In this document: positions 2,685 to 11,435 of the stretch, piece by piece
Numbering within the stretch: position 1 is the stretch's first letter
How the letters are laid out: every line of letters starts with the position of its first letter
Source: Actinomycetes bacterium
GTDB taxonomy: Bacteria > Actinomycetota > Acidimicrobiia > Acidimicrobiales > RAAP-2
Assembly: GCA_021849765.1 (NCBI GenBank)
Contig: JAJZSM010000024.1
Coordinates: 1 to 11,435 of the forward strand
Length of the DNA stretch: 11,435 bases
Reading direction: 5' to 3'
Translations under genes and position numbers: made by a program
The notes under the pieces: model-generated
Told to the model about the DNA's origin: nothing
Seen by the model: only the letters and a program-made list of their open reading frames with translations
Databases searched by the model: none

Positions 2685-2716
2685 CGCGCTCGGTGCGCGG
2701 GCTCGGTCAGCGAGCC
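2685..2716 (-). terminator. two tandem GC hairpins at the end of the Ig-like gene
   Basis: Reading the minus strand, a perfect 6-bp stem (GGCTCG / CGAGCC, 2716-2711 with 2705-2700, 5-base loop) contains the stop codon of the Ig-like gene in its loop. It is followed by a 5-bp stem (CGCGC / GCGCG, 2699-2695 with 2689-2685, 5-base loop). No U tract follows. GC hairpins without a U tract can attenuate transcription or protect mRNA 3' ends in actinobacteria. The position between two gene groups fits, but in DNA this GC-rich short stems also arise by chance. Confidence 0.3.
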
Positions 2717-3276
2717 GTCTTCACCGGCCCCTGCTGGACACGCACGACCAACGAGATGAGCGTCAGCCACACGCCGATCACCAACATGAGCAGCACGAGC
2801 ACCGTCCATCGGCCGATGAGCCCATCAGGTCGCAGACTCTCCACCGCGCCCGCGAAGGGGTCAGTGCGTGCCGCCTGAACCGTCAGCGACGTCGTCGCAA
2901 GTACCGCACCGGAACCGTCGACCGCCGACGCAGCGAAGTTCTGCGTGCCAGCCCACGTCGGCTGATACGTGATCGTGGCGACCCCGGCGGCGTCGGTCGT
3001 CGCCGTGCCGATCTGCAGCAGCGGGGCACCGGCGAACTCCTCGACGTGCACGTAGAAGTTGACCGTCGTGTCCGCCATCGGCGCCGCGGCCGCGCTGGCG
3101 ACCTGGGCCGTCAGCTCGACACCGCGGTGGGACGCGGGACTGCCCGACGTCAGGGCGAGCGTCGCGCCGGTGGAGGCCGCTGCCGGAAGGGCGGCCGCAG
3201 CAACGCTGAGCAGCACCACGCCACTCAGCCCCGCGAGTGCGCGCGTCGCGCGACGAGAGAATTTGGCTACGGACAT
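2707..3276 (-). CDS. secreted Ig-like domain protein with C-terminal membrane anchor
   Basis: The product is 189 residues. Residues 1-35 form a signal peptide (basic SRRATR, hydrophobic core, then an Ala-rich PAAAS cleavage region). Residues about 38-135 look like one extracellular beta-sandwich of the bacterial Ig-like kind, with repeated polar beta strands and the pattern TTDAAGVATITYQP followed by WAGTQNFAASA. Residues 157-178 are a single transmembrane helix followed by a short basic tail. There are no cysteines or heme motifs. The start is well fixed: an AGGAGGT ribosome-binding site lies about 8 bases before ATG 3276, which overlaps the TGA of the NrfD gene by one base (TGATG). This coupling argues for a product made with the NrfD subunit, perhaps a periplasmic accessory or docking subunit. 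I do not recognise a named family. Confidence 0.8.
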   Translation of the reverse strand: MSVAKFSRRATRALAGLSGVVLLSVAAAALPAAASTGATLALTSGSPASHRGVELTAQVASAAAAPMADTTVNFYVHVEEFAGAPLLQIGTATTDAAGVATITYQPTWAGTQNFAASAVDGSGAVLATTSLTVQAARTDPFAGAVESLRPDGLIGRWTVLVLLMLVIGVWLTLISLVVRVQQGPVKTAR

Positions 3277-4682
3277 CACGCGCCCACCTCCTGGGAATCG
3301 AACTCCTCGTGGCCCTCGGCGAGCTCTTCCATTTCCGCCATCGACAGGATCGGGACGAAGCGGAACACGACGAGCAAGAGCAGCGGGATGGCCGCGGTGG
3401 CGGCGATCGTGATCGAGATCGGCACCCACGTGAAGTGATACGTGCCCCAGTTGCCCGCGAGCACGCCGCCCTTGGCCAGTGGCGAGTTCACAAGCGGCTC
3501 GGTCGCCGGGGGGATAACGATGACGAGCCGCTTGATCCAGAGCGCGGCCACCACGAGGAACGAGGCGACCACGACACCACTGGTCGTGCGCAACCGTCGG
3601 AACATCATGATGAACAGGGGCGCGATGCCCCCCGCGACGAAGTAGATCCAGAACGGGATGGCGTAGCGTCCCGCGACGATCTGGTAGACCCAGGCCGATG
3701 CGCCCACCGTCCCCGAGTAGCCATCGATGAGGTACTCGGTGAAGGTGAGGTACAGGTACGCCGCGCCGAAGGCGATCATCAAGAACCCGAGGCGCACGAA
3801 GTGCCGGGGGGTGACGAACTCCTCGAGGTGGAAGAGCTTTCTCGATGCGGCGACCGTCAGCACGACGAGCGCGACGCCGGAGTACAGTGCCGCCACGACG
3901 AAGTAGACGGGCAGGATCGTCTCCATGTAGCCGGCCCTCGAGGACGACGCGAACGCGAAGGACAGCACCGAGTGCACCGAGACAGCCATCGGGATGATCA
4001 TGATGGCGATGAGTCCAATCGCACCGTTCAGACGACGTCGCTCGTAGGGCGTGCCACCGAAGCGTCCGACGAGGACGCGGTAGAGCGACTTGCGCACCTT
4101 CACCCGTGTCGACGGCGCCTCATCCTCGAAGCGCTCGAGGGCGATTGCGGCGTCGGGGACGAGCGGCAGGTAGAAGAAGACGATCGTCGCGAGGAGGTAC
4201 GTGCTCACGGCGAAGAAGTCCCAGAGGATCGGCGACGTGAGGTTCCAGTATGGGGGCCAGACGAGCTCCCAGATCCGGCTCGGTTCGCCCAGGTGCGGGA
4301 TGATGAAGACCATCCCGATGGGCAACGTGACCAGGGCGGTGGCCTCGGCGATCCTCGTGAGCGGCGCACGCCACCCGGCGTGGGTCAGACGAAGAATCGC
4401 CGACACCACGGCGCCGCCGTAGCTCACGCCGATGAAGGTCACGAGGTTGGCCTCGTAGATCGCCCAGAAGGCACCGTCGCTATAACCCGCCGTGCCCAGG
4501 CCGTTGGCGACCTGGTAGATCCAGGCCGCGATGCCGCCCAACACGATCACGGTCAGCACCGCGATCGAGGGCCACCACCACCGGGGCGTCTCGAGCACCG
4601 GCCGCATCGCCGCCGCTCGAAGGTCGGTGTTCTGGGGCGCCGTTTCATCGCGCCCCACGTTTGGAATGATGACGTCAGTCAT
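3276..4682 (-). CDS. NrfD/ActC-type quinone-interacting membrane subunit
   Basis: A 468-residue integral membrane protein with about ten helices (near residues 38-58, 79-98, 112-128, 153-172, 221-238, 257-277, 296-315, 342-360, 371-390, 421-440). Recognisable features match the ActC subunit of alternative complex III within the NrfD/PsrC superfamily: HLGEP (H130), WDFFAVSTY (D155), SVHSVLSF (H237), LEEFVTPRHF, the WGTYHFTW segment and the C-terminal RFVPILSMAEM. In this family the subunit binds menaquinone or ubiquinone and passes electrons to or from a partner iron-sulfur protein, without heme. That partner gene sits 22 bases upstream. The ATG at 4682 has GGAGGGG about 8 bases before it. The usual neighbours ActA, ActD, ActE and the molybdopterin-like part of ActB are absent from this window. 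Family membership is firm; quinone reduction versus quinol oxidation is undetermined. Confidence 0.9.
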   Translation of the reverse strand: MTDVIIPNVGRDETAPQNTDLRAAAMRPVLETPRWWWPSIAVLTVIVLGGIAAWIYQVANGLGTAGYSDGAFWAIYEANLVTFIGVSYGGAVVSAILRLTHAGWRAPLTRIAEATALVTLPIGMVFIIPHLGEPSRIWELVWPPYWNLTSPILWDFFAVSTYLLATIVFFYLPLVPDAAIALERFEDEAPSTRVKVRKSLYRVLVGRFGGTPYERRRLNGAIGLIAIMIIPMAVSVHSVLSFAFASSSRAGYMETILPVYFVVAALYSGVALVVLTVAASRKLFHLEEFVTPRHFVRLGFLMIAFGAAYLYLTFTEYLIDGYSGTVGASAWVYQIVAGRYAIPFWIYFVAGGIAPLFIMMFRRLRTTSGVVVASFLVVAALWIKRLVIVIPPATEPLVNSPLAKGGVLAGNWGTYHFTWVPISITIAATAAIPLLLLVVFRFVPILSMAEMEELAEGHEEFDSQEVGA

Positions 4683-4704
4683 CGGTCCCCTCCAGTCATC
4701 CGCG

Positions 4705-5562
4705 TCACGACGCGCTCGGGTTGTTGTTCAGGTCCTGGCCATGGCCGGGGATGTAGTAGACGCGCGGGTGAGTGCCGTACTCCTCCTTGAAGACGACGGC
4801 GTCGTTCTCGGCGAGGTAGGTGGAGATCTTCACCGTGTTGCCCATGCCGTTTACGGCAGCGTCTGAAGTGAGGTCACCGAAGTAGATGACGCCCATCGGG
4901 CAGTTGGTCACGCACTCGGGCAGCTGGCCGGTGGGCAGCATGGCCGCACACTCGATGCACTTGCCGACGGTGCCCTTCACCTGAGGCACGGGCCACTCAG
5001 GCTCCTGTTTGAACGGCTGACGGGGCGCCGGGACCGGGTCAGACCAGTTGAAGTACCGCGCGTCGTACGGGCAGGCGTTCATGCAGATGCGCGTCCCGAT
5101 GCACTTGCTCTGATCGACGAGTGTGAGGCCCTCCGGAGTGCGGAAGTTCGCCCCGACCGGGCAGACCGGCACGCACGCGGGGTCTTCGCACATCTGGCAC
5201 GGGCGAGGCATGAAGTAGTCCTCGCCGGCGGCGTTCTGCATCGTGTAGACGTTCATCCACGTCTGGTCCTCGTGCAAGTAGTGGGCCGTCTGACAGGCAG
5301 TCGTGCAAAGTTTGCAGCCGTTGCACAGGCGCAGGTCGATGATCATGCACCACTGCTTCACCGGCCCGCTAGGCGTGGTCGTGGCCGGTTGGGAGGCGGC
5401 AGCGAGAGTCTCGGTCAGCGCGCCGAGCACCCCGACGCCCAGGCTGCCGAGGGCCGCCGCCTGGAGGAGTCCGCGTCGGCCGATGGTGACGGCTGCGGCC
5501 GTCAACTCCTCGTGTTGCGCGTCACCGACCGCCACCGTCTCGTTGTCGTGTTTCGTGGTCAT
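4705..5562 (-). CDS. Tat-exported ferredoxin-like iron-sulfur subunit (four-cluster DmsB/PsrB/ActB type)
   Basis: A 285-residue protein with a Tat-like N-terminus (GRRGLLQAAALG, residues 28-39, then a hydrophobic stretch) and four cysteine groups: C80/C83/C86/C90, C122/C125/C130/C134, C154/C160/C164 and C202/C205/C217/C221. This is the arrangement of the electron-transfer subunits of DMSO, polysulfide and nitrate reductases and of the C-terminal part of ActB. The third group reads CIGTRIC where CIGCRxC is usual, so T157 replaces a cluster ligand and a [3Fe-4S] cluster is likely there. It should sit outside the cytoplasmic membrane and carry electrons between the NrfD subunit downstream and the cupredoxins upstream. 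The ATG at 5562 overlaps the preceding stop by four bases (ATGA) and lies just before the Tat region, whereas a longer in-frame start at 5661 would run through the cupredoxin gene. No catalytic Mo subunit is adjacent. Confidence 0.92.
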   Translation of the reverse strand: MTTKHDNETVAVGDAQHEELTAAAVTIGRRGLLQAAALGSLGVGVLGALTETLAAASQPATTTPSGPVKQWCMIIDLRLCNGCKLCTTACQTAHYLHEDQTWMNVYTMQNAAGEDYFMPRPCQMCEDPACVPVCPVGANFRTPEGLTLVDQSKCIGTRICMNACPYDARYFNWSDPVPAPRQPFKQEPEWPVPQVKGTVGKCIECAAMLPTGQLPECVTNCPMGVIYFGDLTSDAAVNGMGNTVKISTYLAENDAVVFKEEYGTHPRVYYIPGHGQDLNNNPSAS

Positions 5563-6299
5563 GCTGCTTCCACCTTGATCGAACCTTCCATCCACTTCAT
5601 GGTCGACATCGCGCCGCCCATGCCATTCGTGCCTGCGCCGCACGGGGCGTAGCACTGCCACGTGAAGGTCCCCGTCTTGGTGGGGACGAACGTCGCGACA
5701 ACCGTCACCGACTTGCCAGTTGGCGCAGCGGGGATCGGCATGTTAAAGCTCAGCCCGGGCACCGTGAAGGTGTGGGCGACCTCCGTGTCCGACACCGACG
5801 AGATCGCGTGTCCCGCGACCGTCTCTTGTCCGGTGGTCGATCCTTGGACCTTCGCGAACATCATCTGAGCCCCCATGAGCGGCGCGGTGCCGTCATCGAA
5901 GCTCACAATCTTGACGGTGACGCGTTCACCGACCTGCACGGTCCAGTTCGGGTTCGTGTACTGCGGCTGATCACCAACACCGGTTAGCGACCCCGTCACG
6001 ATCTTCATCGTCTCGGTCACGTGGCCGTGGGGGGCGATGGGTGCCGGCGGGTTCGAGCGGGTGAGTCTCGTCACGCCGGCGGCGATGCCACCGACCAACG
6101 CGACGGTAACCGCGAGTCCCACCAGGATCCCGGCGATCGACCCGAAGACCACACCACCATTGCGGGCGAATGTTGCGGGACGACGCCAACTCAGACGGCC
6201 GAGGCGGTCGAGCGGGTCGACCGCGCCAAGACGCGCGAGTGGTCCCCGGGCGCTTTCGCGCCCGGGGTCGCTCACGCCAGTGGTGTGGCGGTCACTCAT
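5559..6299 (-). CDS. membrane-anchored CuA-like cupredoxin (His-to-Thr variant), paralog 4
   Basis: 246 residues: a cytoplasmic tail of about 48 residues, one transmembrane helix (about 49-76), and a periplasmic COX2-like beta-sandwich (about 92-246). The first ligand region VAHTFTVPGLSFNMPIP (H176) closely matches the COX2 pattern VxHSFxVPxLGxKMDAxPG. The second region reads CYAPCGAGTNGMGGAM (C216, C220, T224, M227), where COX2 has CAELCGAGHAFM, so the second CuA histidine is Thr. Extra Met residues follow (M231, M234, M237). The closest relatives here are the two upstream genes. ATG 6299 overlaps the upstream stop by four bases (ATGA), and the gene's own stop overlaps the iron-sulfur subunit start. 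It is probably the copper protein closest to that subunit in the complex. A copper chaperone role is the main alternative. A strong hairpin lies inside codons 11-19. Confidence 0.85.
   Translation of the reverse strand: MSDRHTTGVSDPGRESARGPLARLGAVDPLDRLGRLSWRRPATFARNGGVVFGSIAGILVGLAVTVALVGGIAAGVTRLTRSNPPAPIAPHGHVTETMKIVTGSLTGVGDQPQYTNPNWTVQVGERVTVKIVSFDDGTAPLMGAQMMFAKVQGSTTGQETVAGHAISSVSDTEVAHTFTVPGLSFNMPIPAAPTGKSVTVVATFVPTKTGTFTWQCYAPCGAGTNGMGGAMSTMKWMEGSIKVEAA
6244..6267 (-). other. 10-bp perfect RNA hairpin with GAAA tetraloop inside paralog 4
   Basis: The minus strand reads CCCCGGGCGC, GAAA, GCGCCCGGGG: ten uninterrupted G-C pairs closed by a GNRA-type loop, starting about 32 bases after ATG 6299 of the fourth cupredoxin. 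It sits just downstream of the ATGA coupling site, where a stable structure could slow ribosomes, block decay or set the ratio between the small cupredoxins and the rest of the operon. The structure is plain in the sequence; the role is inferred. Confidence 0.55.
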
Positions 6300-6865
6300 G
6301 AAACGACCTTGACCTTGCCTGTCATCCACCCGGCGGTCTTCATGGCGCCGTTCATGCCGACGGTGCCCGTACCGCAGGGAGCAAAGCAGTTCCAGGTGAA
6401 CGTGCCGGTCTTGGTCGGCTTAAACGTTGCGGTGACCACGATGCTCTTGCCCGTCGGTGCGACCGGGATCGGCATGTTAAAGCCCAGGCCGACGATGGTG
6501 AAAGTGTGCGAGACATTGATGTCTGACACGTTGCTCACGGTCTTGCCGCCGGCGACTTCCTTGCCGTTGCTGGTGCCCTTAACCGACGTGTACTTCATGT
6601 ACTTACCCATGAGCGGTGCTGCGCCGTCGTCGTAGCTGATGATCTTGATGGTCACGGTCTGACCCTTGTGCACGGTCCAGGCCGAGTTGGTGATCTTCGG
6701 CTGCTCGCCGCTGCCCGTCAACTTGCCCGTGGTCAGGATCTTCATGACCTCGGTTACGTGACTGGGTGCGGACGCGCCCGCCGTGCCGCCACTGACGACG
6801 CCGGCGCCCAGCACGGGTGCGATGACGAGTGCCAGGGCCGCTGCCTTGGTCATTGTGTGCTTCAT
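6296..6865 (-). CDS. exported CuA-like cupredoxin (His-to-Thr variant), paralog 3
   Basis: 189 residues with a Sec-type signal peptide (MKHTMTK, hydrophobic 8-27, AGASA near 29-33) and no other membrane segment, so it is probably a soluble extracytoplasmic protein. The COX2-like domain carries H120 (VSHTFTIVGLGFN), C160 and C164 (CFAPC), T168 in place of the second CuA His, then M171, M175 and M181. HVTEVMKILTTG after the signal and DDGAAPLMGKYM (79-90) are shared with the two sister genes. ATG 6865 was chosen because GAGGAG lies about 7 bases upstream; the Met ten codons earlier lacks this and would put charged residues before the signal. The stop overlaps the next gene by four bases. Likely a copper-binding electron carrier, with direct copper binding unproven. 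Confidence 0.85.
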   Translation of the reverse strand: MKHTMTKAAALALVIAPVLGAGVVSGGTAGASAPSHVTEVMKILTTGKLTGSGEQPKITNSAWTVHKGQTVTIKIISYDDGAAPLMGKYMKYTSVKGTSNGKEVAGGKTVSNVSDINVSHTFTIVGLGFNMPIPVAPTGKSIVVTATFKPTKTGTFTWNCFAPCGTGTVGMNGAMKTAGWMTGKVKVVS

Positions 6866-6899
6866 CTCATATCTCCTCTTGGTTGAGTACTGCAATCCC

Positions 6900-6920
6900 G
6901 CTCGAACGCCCTGTTCGAGC
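6900..6920 (-). other. intergenic stem-loop between cupredoxin paralogs 2 and 3
   Basis: A perfect 8-bp inverted repeat (GCTCGAAC 6900-6907, GTTCGAGC 6913-6920) with a 5-base loop lies five bases after the stop codon of the upstream cupredoxin gene. No U run follows, so it is not a textbook terminator. A place between two short, probably abundant messages suggests an RNA-stability or attenuation element. Confidence 0.45.
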
Positions 6921-6925
6921 TGGCC

Positions 6926-7486
6926 CTACTTGACGCTGACCTTGCCCGTCATCCAGCTCATGGTCGACATCGCGCCACCCATGCCGTTGGTGCCGCTGCC
7001 GCACGGGGCGTAGCAGTGCCAAACGAACGTGCCGGTCTTCTTGGCGACGAAGCTCGCCGTGACGACGATGTGGCCGCCAGTCGGTGCGACGGGGATCGGC
7101 ATGTTGAAGCCGAGTCCGGGCACGGTGAAGGTGTGGGCAATGTTGATGTCGGACACGTTGGCAACCGGCTTGCCGTTGACGAGCTCCTTGCCGTTGAGCG
7201 TGCCCTTGACGCTCGCGTACGGCATGTACTTGCCCATGAGCGGCGCCGTGCCGTCATCGAAACTGACGATCTGGACGGTCACGGTCTGACCCTTGTGCAC
7301 GGTCCAAGAGGCGTTGGTGATCTTCGGCCAGCCCGGCCTGCCGTCCATCTTGCCGGTGATCAACCGCATGTGCTCAACCACGTGGGTCGGGACGGCTGCT
7401 GCGGCGCTCGTGCCCGTGAGCGACACCGCGGCCAGTGGGGCGGCGGCCAGCAGCAACGCAGACAACGTGGTAATCGGGCGCTTCAT
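6926..7486 (-). CDS. exported CuA-like cupredoxin (His-to-Thr variant), paralog 2
   Basis: 186 residues with a signal peptide (MKRPITT, hydrophobic core 8-22, SAAAA near 27-31). The mature COX2-like domain has H118 (IAHTFTVPGLGFNMPIP), C158 and C162 (CYAPC), T166 at the second CuA His position, and a Met-rich tail (M169, M173, M176, M179) before the last strand. It is very like paralogs 3 and 4 at protein level and visibly similar at DNA level around the GGCATGTT(A/G)AAGC stretch, so the three arose by tandem duplication. ATG 7486 has AAGGAG about 7 bases upstream; the longer frame to 7603 overlaps the previous gene and adds no plausible signal. Expected to be soluble outside the membrane and to ferry electrons or copper. 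Confidence 0.86.
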   Translation of the reverse strand: MKRPITTLSALLLAAAPLAAVSLTGTSAAAAVPTHVVEHMRLITGKMDGRPGWPKITNASWTVHKGQTVTVQIVSFDDGTAPLMGKYMPYASVKGTLNGKELVNGKPVANVSDINIAHTFTVPGLGFNMPIPVAPTGGHIVVTASFVAKKTGTFVWHCYAPCGSGTNGMGGAMSTMSWMTGKVSVK

Positions 7487-7502
7487 CTCAATGCTCCTTG
7501 TT

Positions 7503-7526
7503 GGTTGGGGGGTGGGGGGTGGGCGG
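7503..7526 (+). other. G-rich tract between cupredoxin genes 1 and 2
   Basis: The plus strand holds runs of 2, 6, 6, 3 and 2 G separated by TT, T, T and C. The transcript from the minus strand is therefore C-rich and G-poor here, just before the ribosome-binding site of paralog 2. The DNA could fold a two-tetrad G-quadruplex. The C-rich RNA resembles a Rho loading site. Neither is demonstrated. Confidence 0.35.
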
Positions 7527-7548
7527 TAGAACTTCGGACTGGTTCGAC

Positions 7549-8115
7549 TCAGGCAACCACGGTGACGTAGCCGCGCATGAAGCCGTTGTGCGCCATCGCC
7601 CACTTGTCACAGGGCAGAGCGCAGAACCACTGGATAGTTCCAGGTTTGGTCGGCTTGATCGTGAAGTGGGTGACCGACGGCGACGAGGGACTGCCGGCGG
7701 GGGCCACGGCACTCACATTCAGGTCGGGTGACATCCACGAGTGCGACTGCACGTCGTAGTTGTAGATCGTGACGTCGTAGGTCTTACCGACGGTCATGGT
7801 GAAGGTCCCCGGGACGAAGGCGTCATGGACCAACCCATCGGGACCCTTCACGCCACCAAGCGGCGGCGGGTTGATCTCGAGCTTCACCTGCACGGCGTTC
7901 GAGGCACTCGCGGGCACGACGGCGCTGGTCGACGCACCCGGGGCCGGGGTCGTGCCCGTGACTTTGTGCCAGATCGCACCGGCGCCGGCGGTGATCGCGA
8001 AGACAACCGCCGCGACGATGACGATCCCCGCGACCAACGTCACCAGTCCGCGGACTCGATGTGTCTCTGCCCCGCCGTTTCCGCGGCTCACCACGGTCGT
8101 TTCGCTGCTCATCAT
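7549..8115 (-). CDS. membrane-anchored COX2/CuA-like cupredoxin, divergent first gene of the operon
   Basis: 188 residues: a short cytoplasmic N-terminus, one transmembrane helix (about 23-49), an Ala/Ser/Pro linker, and a cupredoxin domain (about 75-188). Possible copper ligands are H125 (DVQSHSWMSP), C165 and C169 (FCALPC), H176 and M180 (HNGFMRG). These resemble COX2 CuA ligands (H; CxxxC; H; M before RG), but the spacing is C-x3-C-x6-H-x3-M rather than C-x3-C-x3-H-x2-M. It lacks the DDGTAPLMG region of the three sister genes, so it is an older paralog or a separately recruited domain. GGGAGGAG precedes two adjacent ATGs (8115 and 8112) and either could be used. It is the promoter-proximal gene, divergent from the two-component system. 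Likely a membrane-tethered copper electron carrier. Confidence 0.85.
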   Translation of the reverse strand: MMSSETTVVSRGNGGAETHRVRGLVTLVAGIVIVAAVVFAITAGAGAIWHKVTGTTPAPGASTSAVVPASASNAVQVKLEINPPPLGGVKGPDGLVHDAFVPGTFTMTVGKTYDVTIYNYDVQSHSWMSPDLNVSAVAPAGSPSSPSVTHFTIKPTKPGTIQWFCALPCDKWAMAHNGFMRGYVTVVA

Positions 8116-8491: not shown

Positions 8492-9166
8492 GTGGCCGAC
8501 ACCGAAGTGGTGAATTCGAGGTCGATATCCGTCATCGTGGTTGACGATCACGAGGTCGTGCGAGAGGGAACGCGCAAGATGCTCGAGCGAGACCCCGATA
8601 TCGTGGTGGTCGACGAGGTGGGTTCAGTTCAGGACGCCCTCGTGTCCGCCCGACGGTTGCGCCCTCGGCTCATGGTGATAGACGTCGAGTTGCCCGACGG
8701 CAGCGGCGTCGAGGTTGTGCGCGAGGTCGTAGCCGAGAAATTGCCGATCCGCTGCCTGATGCTCTCAGCCCACGACGACTACGTCTACTTCTCCGAGGCC
8801 CTCGCCGCGGGGGCGGGCGGCTACCTCTTGAAGACCGCTAGCGCCGCGGAGTTCGTGGCCGCCGCCCGGACTGTGTCGGTGGGCGGCACGGTCATCGACG
8901 GCTCGCTCTCGCACCGGCTCGCCGGTCGGCGCCAACCCCCCGAAGAAGAGCTAATTCACCGGCTCACGGCGCGCGAGCTCGACGTCATCGCTGCCCTCGT
9001 GCGGGGCCGCTCCAACAAGGAGATCGCCCTGGAGCTCGGCATCGGACTGCGAACCATCGAGAGCTACGTCTCGGCGATCCTTAACAAGCTCGGCGTGCGC
9101 TCACGCACTGAAGCGACGATCTTCGCGATCGAACACCACCTCGCCTCACCAAAACCGAGCAAGTGA
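8492..9166 (+). CDS. NarL/FixJ-family response regulator with LuxR-type HTH
   Basis: 224 residues. The receiver domain (about 12-130) has the acidic pair D18-D19, phospho-acceptor D64 (MVIDVELPDGSG), S92 and K114 (YLLK). The LuxR-type DNA-binding domain spans about 155-215, with LTARELDVIAALVRGRSN and the recognition-helix region LRTIESYVSAILNKLGVRSR. All switch residues are intact, so it should be a phosphorylation-controlled transcription factor. The start is a GTG at 8492 with AAGG seven bases upstream; a nearby ATG at 8487 is in another frame. It overlaps the kinase gene by four bases (GTGA) and points away from the cupredoxin operon across a shared control region with two matching dyads, so it probably controls that operon and itself. 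Target and stimulus are inferred only. Confidence 0.95.
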   Translation: MADTEVVNSRSISVIVVDDHEVVREGTRKMLERDPDIVVVDEVGSVQDALVSARRLRPRLMVIDVELPDGSGVEVVREVVAEKLPIRCLMLSAHDDYVYFSEALAAGAGGYLLKTASAAEFVAAARTVSVGGTVIDGSLSHRLAGRRQPPEEELIHRLTARELDVIAALVRGRSNKEIALELGIGLRTIESYVSAILNKLGVRSRTEATIFAIEHHLASPKPSK

Positions 9167-10602
9167 GAACGCCGAACCCCCGCATCCCGATCCGTGAGAT
9201 CCTCGTGCGGGCACTGCACCCGCCCGTTCGCGAACGGGCCTTTTGGGCCGTGCAGGCGATGGTGGTGTTCTGGGCCGTGATCCACGTGTGGGTCGACATC
9301 AGTAACGCGTTGCACGGCAGCGTCCTGCCCTACGGCGTGCCAATCGACCTGCTGTTGATCCCCGTCGGCTACGCCGCCCTACGCTACGGCCTCTCCGGTT
9401 CGGCGGCCACCACCATCTGGGCGATTCTCCTGTGGATGCCCGACCTCTTGATCCCCGACGACAAGGGCCACTACCAGCAAGATCTTGTCCAACTCTTCGT
9501 CGTCACCGTCGTCGCGCTCTTCGTCGGTCTCGAGATCGAACGCGCCCACCTCGAACGGGCTCGCGCCGAAGTCGCCGAGGCTGAACGGCGCGTCGCCGAG
9601 CAGCACTACCACCGGCTCTTCGATGTGAACACGGCGCCGATCTTCCTGATCGATCCGTTGGACACCGTGTTAGAGGCCAATCCCGCCGCGCTGCACCTCA
9701 GCGCCGGCGCGACAGGTCGGCGGATCACCGACCTGTTCGGTATCGCCAACCACGACCTCGTCGAAGGACGGATGAACCAGCTCACCATCCGTCCATCCGG
9801 TGATGATGAGGAGCGCAATTTTCGTTTCTCAGTCTCCAATTTCGAGCCCAGCGCCGTCGGGTCGATCCGTCAGGTTGTCCTCGAGGACGTCACCGAGGAG
9901 TACCGCTCCGAGCGCGAGGCGCGAGCCTGGGCGATCGAGGTCCTGCGCGCTCAAGAGGACGAGCGACGTCGCATCGCCCGCGAGATCCACGACGACCCGC
10001 TGCAGCGTCTGCTCCAACTGGCCCGACGTCTCGAGGTCCTCGGGTCGCCGAGCGAACAGATCAACGGGGACGAGCGTGTCGAGCAGTTCGCCACGGTACG
10101 CGAGGAGTTGCTCAACGTCGTCGGGCACCTGCGCGAGGTCACCCGCGGGTTACACCCGGCCGGACTCGACCAACACGGACTCGTCGCTGCAGTCCGTGGG
10201 CTCCTCGTCGACCTCGAAGTCGACGAGGGACTCATCACAGACTTCATCGTCACCGGGGACATCATCAGCGGATCCCACGAGGCCGAGGTTGGGCTCTTTC
10301 GCATCGTCCAAGAGGCGGTGCGCAACGTCATCCGCCACGCCCGGGCGGCGAACCTCGTGGTGTCGATCCACTACGCGAAGGACTGCGCGCACGTCACGAT
10401 CGTCGACGACGGCGTCGGTTTCGACGTGAGCCGTGACAGCCTCGTCTCGGGCAATCACCTCGGGATATTGAGCATGCGCGAGCGGGCGAATCTCCTCGAC
10501 GGTCACTGCGAGGTCACTTCGACGATCGGCGAGGGAACGACGGTCGAGGCCACGGTGCCACTGCACCGTGTAGCGGTCGAGGCCATGGTCCGCCGCGACT
10601 GA
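9163..10602 (+). CDS. membrane-bound PAS-containing sensor histidine kinase (NarX/DegS-type, HisKA_3)
   Basis: 479 residues, starting with GTG 9163 that overlaps the response-regulator stop. Residues about 28-125 contain three or four membrane helices with little extracytoplasmic sequence. A short coiled coil (126-150, Glu/Arg/Ala-rich) leads to a PAS domain (about 148-248, NTAPIFLIDPLDTVLEANPA). The dimerisation domain has the phospho-histidine H276 in RRRIAREIHDDPLQ. The ATPase has N-box N388 (QEAVRN), G1 motif DDGVGFD (415-421) and a G2-like HLGILSMRERA. These are the features of kinases that pair with NarL-type regulators, and the partner is encoded just before it. No heme- or cluster-binding cysteine motif is visible, so the signal may be membrane, redox or quinone-related, or a PAS ligand. 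The gene ends 16 bases from the convergent DoxX-like gene. Confidence 0.94.
   Translation: MRTPNPRIPIREILVRALHPPVRERAFWAVQAMVVFWAVIHVWVDISNALHGSVLPYGVPIDLLLIPVGYAALRYGLSGSAATTIWAILLWMPDLLIPDDKGHYQQDLVQLFVVTVVALFVGLEIERAHLERARAEVAEAERRVAEQHYHRLFDVNTAPIFLIDPLDTVLEANPAALHLSAGATGRRITDLFGIANHDLVEGRMNQLTIRPSGDDEERNFRFSVSNFEPSAVGSIRQVVLEDVTEEYRSEREARAWAIEVLRAQEDERRRIAREIHDDPLQRLLQLARRLEVLGSPSEQINGDERVEQFATVREELLNVVGHLREVTRGLHPAGLDQHGLVAAVRGLLVDLEVDEGLITDFIVTGDIISGSHEAEVGLFRIVQEAVRNVIRHARAANLVVSIHYAKDCAHVTIVDDGVGFDVSRDSLVSGNHLGILSMRERANLLDGHCEVTSTIGEGTTVEATVPLHRVAVEAMVRRD
9222..9239 (+). other. 18-bp perfect palindrome in the histidine-kinase gene
   Basis: GCCCGTTCG followed by its exact complement CGAACGGGC, within codons 20-26 of the kinase. 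The transcript could form a 7-bp stem with a CGCG loop about 60 bases after the coupled start codon. It may be chance in GC-rich coding DNA. Confidence 0.3.
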
Positions 10603-10618: not shown

Positions 10619-11435
10619 TTACTGAGCGGCGGCGACTCGCGACGTCGACAACGGCCAGAACGTCCACGCGAGGAGTGCGATCAGCGGTCCAGAGTTGACG
10701 TCTGTGCCCTGCGCCGTCAGCACGCCACCGAAGTCCTGGACGAGCCACACGAACGCGGCGAAGGTCATCGCGACGATCAGCGCCGGTCGCACGAGTGCGG
10801 GCTTGGCGATGGCGAGCGCGACGGCGAGGCTCAGAAGCGCGAGGCCGAGCGAGAACGCGAAGCCGCGGTCGGCGAACACGCTGGCGAGGCCGCGGTCGAT
10901 TGACTGGACCCAACCTGGCTCACCGGACGCCACGCCCATCACCAGGTCGTGCATCGCCTGGGGTGCCCGATTCGCGGGGAGCAGGAAGTACACCGCGAAG
11001 TCGACCCAGAGCACGACCCAGGCCGCGGTCGCGCCTCGGCGCCCCCAGGCACCGGCATCGGCGACCGAGAGCGCGTCCCCACGACCAGACGGCCAGACCA
11101 GAACCGCGATCACGGCGTAGAGCACGACCGCGCCCGGTTGACCGGCGAGCGGCGAGCCGCCGGCGAACACTCCACCAAACCCCTCGGCGAACCACCAGAC
11201 CGCCAGGCTCCAGACGATCGAGGTCCCCAAAGCCAGTCGGGTAGTGGGACGCCAAAGCAGGCCGAGCGCAATCACGAGCTGCAGCGTGGCGTAGAGGGCG
11301 TTCCACCACGCGATGTCGTGGACCATGAAGTGGTCCGCCCAGATCATGGGTTGCACGATCAGCCACGGACTCCCCGACGCCGCCGGCTCGAGCGCGCCGG
11401 TCACGAAGGCCTTGGTGAACATGAAGGGCTGGAAC
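10619..11435 (-). CDS. DoxX-like integral membrane protein with internal duplication, N-terminus cut by window edge
   Basis: At least 267 residues from the first Met in the window (11422). The frame stays open to the window end (FQPF before that Met), so the true start is probably outside. The visible part has two homologous halves: residues about 5-110 contain SGSPW and later WWFAEGFGGVFAGGSP; residues about 147-256 contain SGEPGW and later VWLVQDFGGVLTAQGTD. The second half begins with a helix (131-148) that has no counterpart in the first half within the window, which supports truncation. About seven membrane segments are visible. The GGV(L/F)-T/A-xG-(T/S) loop plus four-helix unit resembles DoxX/DoxD-like proteins common in actinobacteria. 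Some DoxD-type proteins are subunits of thiosulfate:quinone oxidoreductase, but most have no known role. It ends convergent to the histidine kinase. No catalytic motif is recognised. Confidence 0.78.
   Translation of the reverse strand, partial: FQPFMFTKAFVTGALEPAASGSPWLIVQPMIWADHFMVHDIAWWNALYATLQLVIALGLLWRPTTRLALGTSIVWSLAVWWFAEGFGGVFAGGSPLAGQPGAVVLYAVIAVLVWPSGRGDALSVADAGAWGRRGATAAWVVLWVDFAVYFLLPANRAPQAMHDLVMGVASGEPGWVQSIDRGLASVFADRGFAFSLGLALLSLAVALAIAKPALVRPALIVAMTFAAFVWLVQDFGGVLTAQGTDVNSGPLIALLAWTFWPLSTSRVAAAQ

Follow-up and report, generated by a model that had tools for sequence, protein, structure and literature searches.

A candidate quinone:cupredoxin oxidoreductase gene cluster conserved in uncultured actinobacteria

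Introduction

With which carrier does an iron-sulfur (Fe-S)/NrfD membrane pair exchange electrons when copper proteins are encoded beside it? The question is raised by a stretch of 11,435 nucleotides, here called the window, from contig JAJZSM010000024.1 of an Actinomycetes bacterium of the RAAP-2 family (assembly GCA_021849765.1). The window carries a module of seven packed minus-strand genes (2707-8115) for four cupredoxins, an Fe-S protein, an NrfD-type subunit and an immunoglobulin (Ig)-like membrane protein. The reading we lean towards, with some reserve, is that this operon encodes a quinone:cupredoxin oxidoreductase related to alternative complex III (ACIII), DsrOP and NrfCD. In the literature searched (open-licence PMC), neither a description of the gene set nor a name for the Fe-S/NrfD/Ig family was found. 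To our knowledge, electron movement to or from iron in acidophilic Actinomycetota is largely unresolved. If the genes serve iron electron transfer in these organisms, they would be conserved candidates for it, with a two-component system alongside.

Results and discussion

Organization of the gene cluster

An earlier note, made from the sequence of the window alone, had described seven close or overlapping minus-strand genes; all seven open reading frames (ORFs) were found where it had placed them, with the protein types it had named. They are transcribed in the order cup4, cupA, cupB, cupC, Fe-S, NrfD and Ig. The product of cup4 (7549-8115, or to 8118) is a divergent, membrane-anchored cupredoxin; those of cupA (6926-7486) and cupB (6296-6865) are secreted, CuA-derived cupredoxins assigned by a family profile, and that of cupC (5559-6299), the start of which overlaps the cupB stop, belongs to the same family and has an N-terminal membrane anchor. 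They are followed by a Tat-type Fe-S protein with four cluster motifs (4705-5562), an NrfD/ActC-type membrane subunit (3276-4682) and a protein with an Ig-like domain and a C-terminal transmembrane (TM) helix (2707-3276). Signal peptides and membrane helices were assigned by eye. The successive junctions are 62 bases, 60 bases, an overlap, an overlap, 22 bases and an overlap, the overlaps being of a few bases each, and such tight spacing makes a single transcript likely. The ratio of nonsynonymous to synonymous substitution rates was 0.03-0.26 for all seven genes in comparisons with loci L001, L002, L003 and L055, which indicates that all are maintained as proteins. A PHROGs search gave no matches.

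Conservation of the gene set

A scan of one genome per species with exact peptide patterns, an approach which favours close relatives, recovered 71 further loci with the gene set. Nearly all are labelled as metagenome-assembled genomes (MAGs) of actinobacteria; the exceptions are three labelled Chloroflexi or Chloroflexota and four labelled only 'bacterium'. Together with the window and locus L132 they make up 73 core loci, and presence of a gene was counted only in loci with enough flank. Profiles for the Fe-S, Ig and cupredoxin proteins were built from module sequences, that for Ig from 53 of 68 loci. Genes were called by a codon-usage script, and some cupredoxins lay hidden under antisense frames; cupredoxins were therefore counted from six-frame ORFs and haem proteins from gene calls. 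The Fe-S and Ig proteins were each present in 68 of 68 core loci and a cupredoxin in 55 of 59, so the conservation on which the earlier note had made its proposal depend was found. ActA/ActE-type cytochromes just outside the window, which it had named as a refutation, were not apparent: a gene with a CxxCH (haem c) motif was found at a distance of up to 7 kb in one core locus out of 72, though many contigs end sooner. Locus L017, where a haem motif occurs as well as a cupredoxin, was scored as cupredoxin.

An acid-mine source was traced for two core loci, L006 and L008, the only ones whose sites were looked up. They were matched by isolate name to MAGs 8 and 9, which PMC8357290 describes as RAAP-2 family genomes from acid mine drainage.

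Copper-ligand pattern of the cupredoxins

The cupB protein is 65% identical to cupA and 55% to cupC, which places the three in one CuA-derived family, and cup4 is more divergent (28%). Pfam matches stayed below the cut-off: Cupredoxin_1 on cup4 (24.6 of 27 bits, E 2.6e-5) and COX2 on cupC (14.8 of 22 bits), with nothing on cupA and chance-level matches only on cupB. In NCBIfam, CoxB matched cupC at E 1.3e-4 (21.6 of 147.7 bits). A PDB comparison (E up to 1) with a profile of cupA, cupB, cupC and nine relatives gave matches, all weak, to COX2 and nitrous oxide reductase alone (best E 0.0022, others above 0.05).

The ligand loops are CYAPCGSGTNGMGGAM in cupA, CFAPCGTGTVGMNGAM in cupB and CALPCDKWAMAHNGFM in cup4, in which the upstream His lies in QSHSW. 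Near NrfD the core loci have 129 cupredoxin ORFs, and 125 of these contain a W-x-C-x3-C motif; the other four comprise two fragments or frameshadows, judged by their letters, one protein with Ser for the second Cys, and one fusion at L067. Among the 125, Met at C+11, counted from the second Cys, was invariant, an upstream His motif occurred in 113, and a His within the loop occurred in 23, all of the cup4 type. The second His of CuA (C+4) was found in none, and a canonical CuA centre was rejected on this ground. In the cupA/B/C family CX3C is accompanied by a single His that is almost invariant, a pattern that does not fit a type 1 (blue) cupredoxin either, with its one Cys, two His and usually a Met.

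In the absence of the second His, 'CuA-like', the term applied to all four proteins by the earlier note, is to be taken in the sense of descent from a CuA domain and not of a binuclear site. CX3C, the first His and a Met are shared with the CuA domains of COX2 and nitrous oxide reductase, but the Met of the module proteins is four residues further on and, by eye, about 40 residues are inserted before the first His. In CuA, one of the two coppers is ligated by His, Cys, Cys and Met. The retained His/Cys/Cys/Met set equals these ligands, and a single copper per protein is predicted. This halved CuA ligand set is a candidate copper site open to test.

Quinone-site residues and cluster motifs

The NrfD protein matched Pfam NrfD at E 2.2e-27. 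Its PDB matches were four ACIII subunit C chains only (best E 3.8e-47), and it aligns with ActC over the whole length. Residues of the quinone site, pocket and channels of Rhodothermus marinus ActC, as named in PMC8076601 and PMC5928083, were mapped by alignment onto 12 NrfD family rows that are 61-100% identical to the window protein. His139, Ser164 and Asp169 (R. marinus ActC numbering), three of the four polar quinone-site residues, are identical in all 12 rows. So are eight of the 14 residues of the cytoplasmic half-channel and three of the six of the periplasmic half-channel (Tyr270, Glu326 and Arg395).

The Fe-S protein (285 amino acids) consists of Fer4 domains only, with four cluster motifs. 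The third, CIGTRIC, has one Cys fewer, as in ActB and unlike PsrB and ArrB, and this likeness to ActB suggests a 3Fe-4S cluster adjoining the quinone site. The best NCBIfam match of the Fe-S protein was DsrO (166.4 of 200 bits), and DsrP was matched at 66.8 of 350 bits, both below the cut-off. The Ig-like protein was matched by Big_1 under the Pfam cut-off (21 of 34.9 bits).

Electron partners of related NrfD clades

At E 1e-30, a related NrfD was found in 28 of 296 genomes of the class sample. By reading, nine of these belong to the cupredoxin clade (G043 without a cupredoxin), three to a neighbouring d166 type and 14 to loci L114-L127; one is distant and one is G116. L114-L127 are relatives of the haem type: a CxxCH gene lay within 7 kb in 13 of the 14 and a module-type cupredoxin in none. 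In most of them the gene adjoining NrfD encodes an Ig-like domain, a TM helix and a cytochrome c in one protein, as at L119:3214-4200 (Cytochrome_CBB3 E 1.7e-12; Big_3_5 under the cut-off). Ig and cytochrome c are separate genes in L116, and in L118 the Ig protein contains no haem motif. EB_dh proteins are encoded nearby in nine loci. The window Ig family could be aligned with the Ig-TM part of ten such fusion proteins (hhalign E 1.4e-5, probability 80%).

Among 40 further relatives (L134-L173), CxxCH genes lay within 7 kb in 19, and a CX3C cupredoxin of the module type in none. L140 and L146 gave weak matches to the cup4 profile without CX3C, plastocyanin-like by eye, and were scored as not of the module type. 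Near L138, a plastocyanin-like protein and a multicopper oxidase were seen by eye which the module profiles miss. A third partner type, with the gene order FeS-NrfD-Ig-d166-c28, occurs in Chloroflexota and a few Acidimicrobiia and has neither haem c nor a module cupredoxin. At L067 a cupredoxin is apparently fused to a d166-like domain (by eye).

To relate these partners to descent, NrfD trees were built. Thirteen of 130 rows were dropped from the main tree, six in which the cupredoxin is missing as the contig ends upstream (L004, L018, L024, L030, L033, L057) and seven near copies (L005, L042, L043, L044, L051, L052, L059). The resulting 117 rows were analysed by a quick method with the Shimodaira-Hasegawa-like approximate likelihood ratio test (SH-aLRT) and no bootstrap. 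All 54 cupredoxin rows fell within one 56-row clade (SH-aLRT 99). The cupredoxin label required two changes (shuffle mean 38.7) and the haem label five; in an earlier tree, in which the 13 rows were kept and the outer set was smaller, the cupredoxin label required eight. Both trees omit L070 and L071, whose NrfD is shorter than 330 amino acids. The d166 loci adjoin the cupredoxin clade. In these data the partner type follows the NrfD clade, with copper proteins in one and cytochromes c in more distant relatives. One quinone-binding core with exit carriers that differ by clade (cytochrome c, copper protein, third type) would offer a natural experiment in redox-partner change.

Two observations on these relatives may be added. 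The d166 and c28 genes that follow FeS-NrfD-Ig can be seen at L129:8737-10736, L134-L141, L068 and L069; c28 has a TIG-like match, and by eye some Cys and His of d166 seem to be conserved. At L115, L116, L120, L145, L156 and L169-L171, multihaem cytochromes with 5-9 CxxCH motifs, which might serve extracellular electron transfer, are encoded close to related FeS-NrfD pairs.

Comparison with known systems

By anatomy the module resembles the core of ACIII (ActABCDEF), with an ActC-type NrfD in which three of the four polar quinone-site residues are retained, the fourth, Asp253, being Ala, and a periplasmic Fe-S chain with the CIGTR motif. It differs in that the Fe-S protein lacks the Mo-like domain of ActB, in that pentahaem ActA or monohaem ActE is not encoded nearby as far as contig ends permit, and in that no second NrfD (ActF) lies beside the first. 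A single NrfD match at E 1e-20 was obtained in 42 of 48 genomes that carry the module, a search which a distant ActF-like protein could escape. The module is not classed as ACIII.

The ACIII of Chloroflexus is reportedly a menaquinol:auracyanin oxidoreductase. According to PMC3150298 the acceptor proposed for it is a cupredoxin, auracyanin, which binds copper through two His and is encoded apart from the act operons. The module cupredoxins, by comparison, are encoded inside the operon and have CX3C with one conserved His. With NrfCD and DsrOP the module shares an Fe-S and NrfD pair without a Mo subunit of its own, and DsrO as best NCBIfam match. The partners of those pairs are haem proteins (DsrJ; NrfA/B). 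The module has no adjacent haem partner, and its DsrO and DsrP scores are both below the cut-off. From the molybdenum bisPGD enzymes with Fe-S/NrfD subunits (Psr, Ttr, Arr) it differs by the lack, among the matches listed, of an adjacent molybdopterin subunit. The Fe-S/NrfD/Ig-cytochrome c/EB_dh clusters of other Acidimicrobiia and Chloroflexota have the same core order, a related Ig-TM subunit and, in several cases, two-component genes near them, but they carry cytochromes c, with EB_dh in nine loci, and not cupredoxins. AcoP/Cup, rusticyanin and sulfocyanin of acidophile iron chains are copper carriers of respiration, as the module proteins would be, and a related cupredoxin adjoins an oxidase operon here. 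Rusticyanin has one Cys, two His and one Met according to PMC10654088. Sulfocyanin was found above the cut-off in none of the 48 module genomes, with weak matches in 14, and was rejected as a reading. Since at least one tested feature is lacking for each of ACIII, DsrMKJOP, NrfABCD, the Mo enzymes, CuA and type 1 cupredoxins, the module is not assigned to any of them.

Proposed function

From these features we infer that the seven products assemble into a complex of the following kind. NrfD would bind quinol at the periplasmic side, and the electrons would enter the Fe-S protein at its likely 3Fe-4S cluster and run on through three 4Fe-4S clusters. From there they would reach the tethered cupC, perhaps also cup4, and then the soluble carriers cupA and cupB, which would deliver them to a high-potential acceptor such as a haem-copper oxidase or, at low pH, Fe(III). 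The Ig-like protein would be a structural subunit, the relatives of which mostly end in a cytochrome c. Copper carriers would thus fill the role of electron exit that cytochromes c hold in more distant relatives.

Cupredoxin potentials are usually far above that of menaquinol. This, the scarcity of RuBisCO in module genomes, and Chloroflexus ACIII as the nearest tested relative lead us to prefer quinol oxidation, with quinone reduction a serious second. More tentatively, and we would sooner doubt than assert it as a whole, the module may let electrons leave the quinone pool without haem. A redox-driven Fe-S/NrfD complex, which might also pump protons, would use tandem halved-CuA cupredoxins to feed Fe(III) respiration at low pH or a cupredoxin-linked oxidase without cytochrome c, and would stand beside at least two other partner types in the Fe-S/NrfD/Ig family.

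The oxidase genes of the module genomes bear on the acceptor. An oxidase match of 398-447 bits was obtained in 23 of the 48. In 10 of 11 second-oxidase regions (L072:5317-9673, L074, L075, L076, L077, L079-L083) the gene immediately ahead of coxB encodes a related CX3C cupredoxin, as is the case in none of the 16 canonical-oxidase regions tested out of 21. Oxidase and module cupredoxins are homologous (hhalign E 1.4e-29). In the class sample the oxidase-type cupredoxin reached at least 98 bits in 23 genomes, with two more weaker, and it occurs also in class genomes without the module, such as G062 (contig of at least 1.8 Mb).

Several results weigh against quinol oxidation through cupredoxins as set out above. 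Within the ActC-like sites, Asp253 is replaced by Ala and Glu394 by Lys in all 12 rows, and Trp82 alone is identical among the six residues of the hydrophobic pocket, Ile86 being Glu in all 12. Four loci with full flank (L061, L062, L068, L069) have no cupredoxin, and in L054 the sole one counted lies about 6 kb away on the opposite strand. At E 1e-3 the Ig profile found only three of the 14 haem-type loci, and, as the d166/c28 relatives have neither partner, the change from cytochrome to copper may have taken more than one step. Only three of nine module genomes in the class sample have the oxidase-type cupredoxin (P about 0.025). With so weak an overlap, tight coupling of the module to the cupredoxin-containing oxidase operon was rejected; the link is suggestive but not tight, and for the terminal oxidase that the earlier note had mentioned as a possible acceptor a fixed link is not supported, although a related cupredoxin is encoded in the second oxidase operon of some genomes.

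Nor is a replacement for complex III needed. Haem-copper oxidase subunit I, a Rieske domain and cytochrome b are each encoded in 48 of 48 module genomes, cytochrome b strongly in 44; its match is weak in the close relatives G001, G003 and G038 and in G041, where the gene adjoining the qcr cluster is missing too, and the weakness is read as an assembly gap. Since bcc-aa3 genes coexist with the module, complex III replacement was rejected as its role. Finally, the lack of RuBisCO leaves other CO2 fixation possible, the MAGs are incomplete, and PMC8357290 lists carbon-fixation genes for MAG 9, from which, judged by its name, L008 comes and which is outside the 48.

Alternative explanations

The last points touch the alternative that survives best, that of flow in the reverse direction. 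Fe(II) or another inorganic donor would reduce the cupredoxins, and the Fe-S/NrfD pair would drive some electrons uphill to quinone, the task of bc1 in Acidithiobacillus. The acid mine drainage MAGs L006 and L008, so described by name, speak for it, as do the carbon fixation listed for MAG 9, the oxidase operon with a related cupredoxin in some module genomes, and ferrous iron oxidation as a characteristic of Acidimicrobiaceae at acidic, metal-laden sites (PMC4714123). On the other side, RuBisCO was found in only three of the 48 module genomes, so that uphill flow towards the Calvin cycle is unlikely to be the common role; most genomes of the class sample that have the cupredoxin-oxidase operon lack the module; and the search for sulfocyanin gave only the weak matches mentioned. 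For MAGs 8 and 9, PMC8357290 reports no genes for Fe(II) oxidation of the Cyc2 type, and no search of our own was made for an outer-surface iron oxidase. We regard the reverse direction, and with it the inorganic donor that the earlier note had suggested, as unlikely, though worth keeping in view.

It is improbable that the module serves copper-site assembly or the delivery of reductant, with quinol electrons used to reduce CX3C proteins for the loading or repair of copper centres and not for respiratory flux. CX3C with one His and one Met does resemble what is known of SCO-type copper sites, and a member of the membrane protein family encoded at 10619-11422 in the window is fused to SCO1/SenC in an oxidase operon. 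Yet tandem cupredoxins and a four-cluster Fe-S chain would exceed the needs of a chaperone, and cytochromes c stand beside the same core in relatives.

Still less probable is an ordinary Fe-S/NrfD enzyme completed by a molybdopterin or other catalytic subunit encoded elsewhere, the cupredoxins merely sharing the operon: a match to the molybdopterin family PF00384 occurs somewhere in all 48 module genomes and, among the matches listed, those nearest to a module NrfD are some 8.4 and 13 kb off in G041, with 12 kb for G045 and 16 kb for G018, but in none of the 48 genomes does a listed match come within 7 kb, many contigs being short, while the same searches picked up an ordinary Mo-NrfD arrangement at G044:C72, and cupredoxin linkage is kept through the whole NrfD clade. 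The PF00384 frames are few in the close relatives G001 (762 amino acids), G002 (905) and G003 (741), with one each, and in the still closer G038, with two (762 and 905); they could be NuoG of complex I or formate dehydrogenase. A Mo subunit just outside the window, which the earlier note had named as a danger to its proposal, has not appeared among the matches listed, within the limits set by contig ends. Its proposal of a quinone oxidoreductase that exchanges electrons with cupredoxins and not with cytochrome c is refuted by neither of its own checks and is partly supported, relatives with cytochromes c in the same neighbourhood being further evidence; a CuA centre is not supported.

Neighbouring genes and other observations

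Divergent from the module, on the plus strand, lie genes for a NarL/LuxR-type response regulator (8492-9166), assigned by Pfam and neighbourhood comparison, and for a sensor histidine kinase which pairs with it (9163-10602; Pfam and NCBIfam). Of the 46 core loci in which this could be judged, 31 have a histidine kinase match upstream of NrfD. Directly downstream of the module, an ABC transporter ATPase and a permease-like gene (200-2659) keep this position only in the closest relatives. In six loci (L029:11090-14935, L036, L037, L057, L061 and L062) a Fer4_5 polyferredoxin membrane protein lies beside the module, together with a flavoprotein with Fe-S and flavodoxin-like domains, a possible link to NAD(P)H (Pfam on L029 only). 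A radical SAM protein with a SEC-C motif, like sulfatase-maturating enzymes by eye, is found at L015:5740-7074 and in seven further loci (Pfam on L015 only).

The minus-strand gene at 10619-11422, which may extend past the window, encodes a membrane protein with two similar halves (by eye) and no Pfam match, possibly accessory. Of 43 core loci with enough flank, 27 have a member of its family close to the module, either between the Fe-S and NrfD genes or in another place. At L072:3169-4905, near the oxidase operon, its domain is fused to the SCO1/SenC copper-chaperone domain, and at L025:6225-7724 to a CuA-derived cupredoxin in a protein of 499 amino acids that has no Pfam match.

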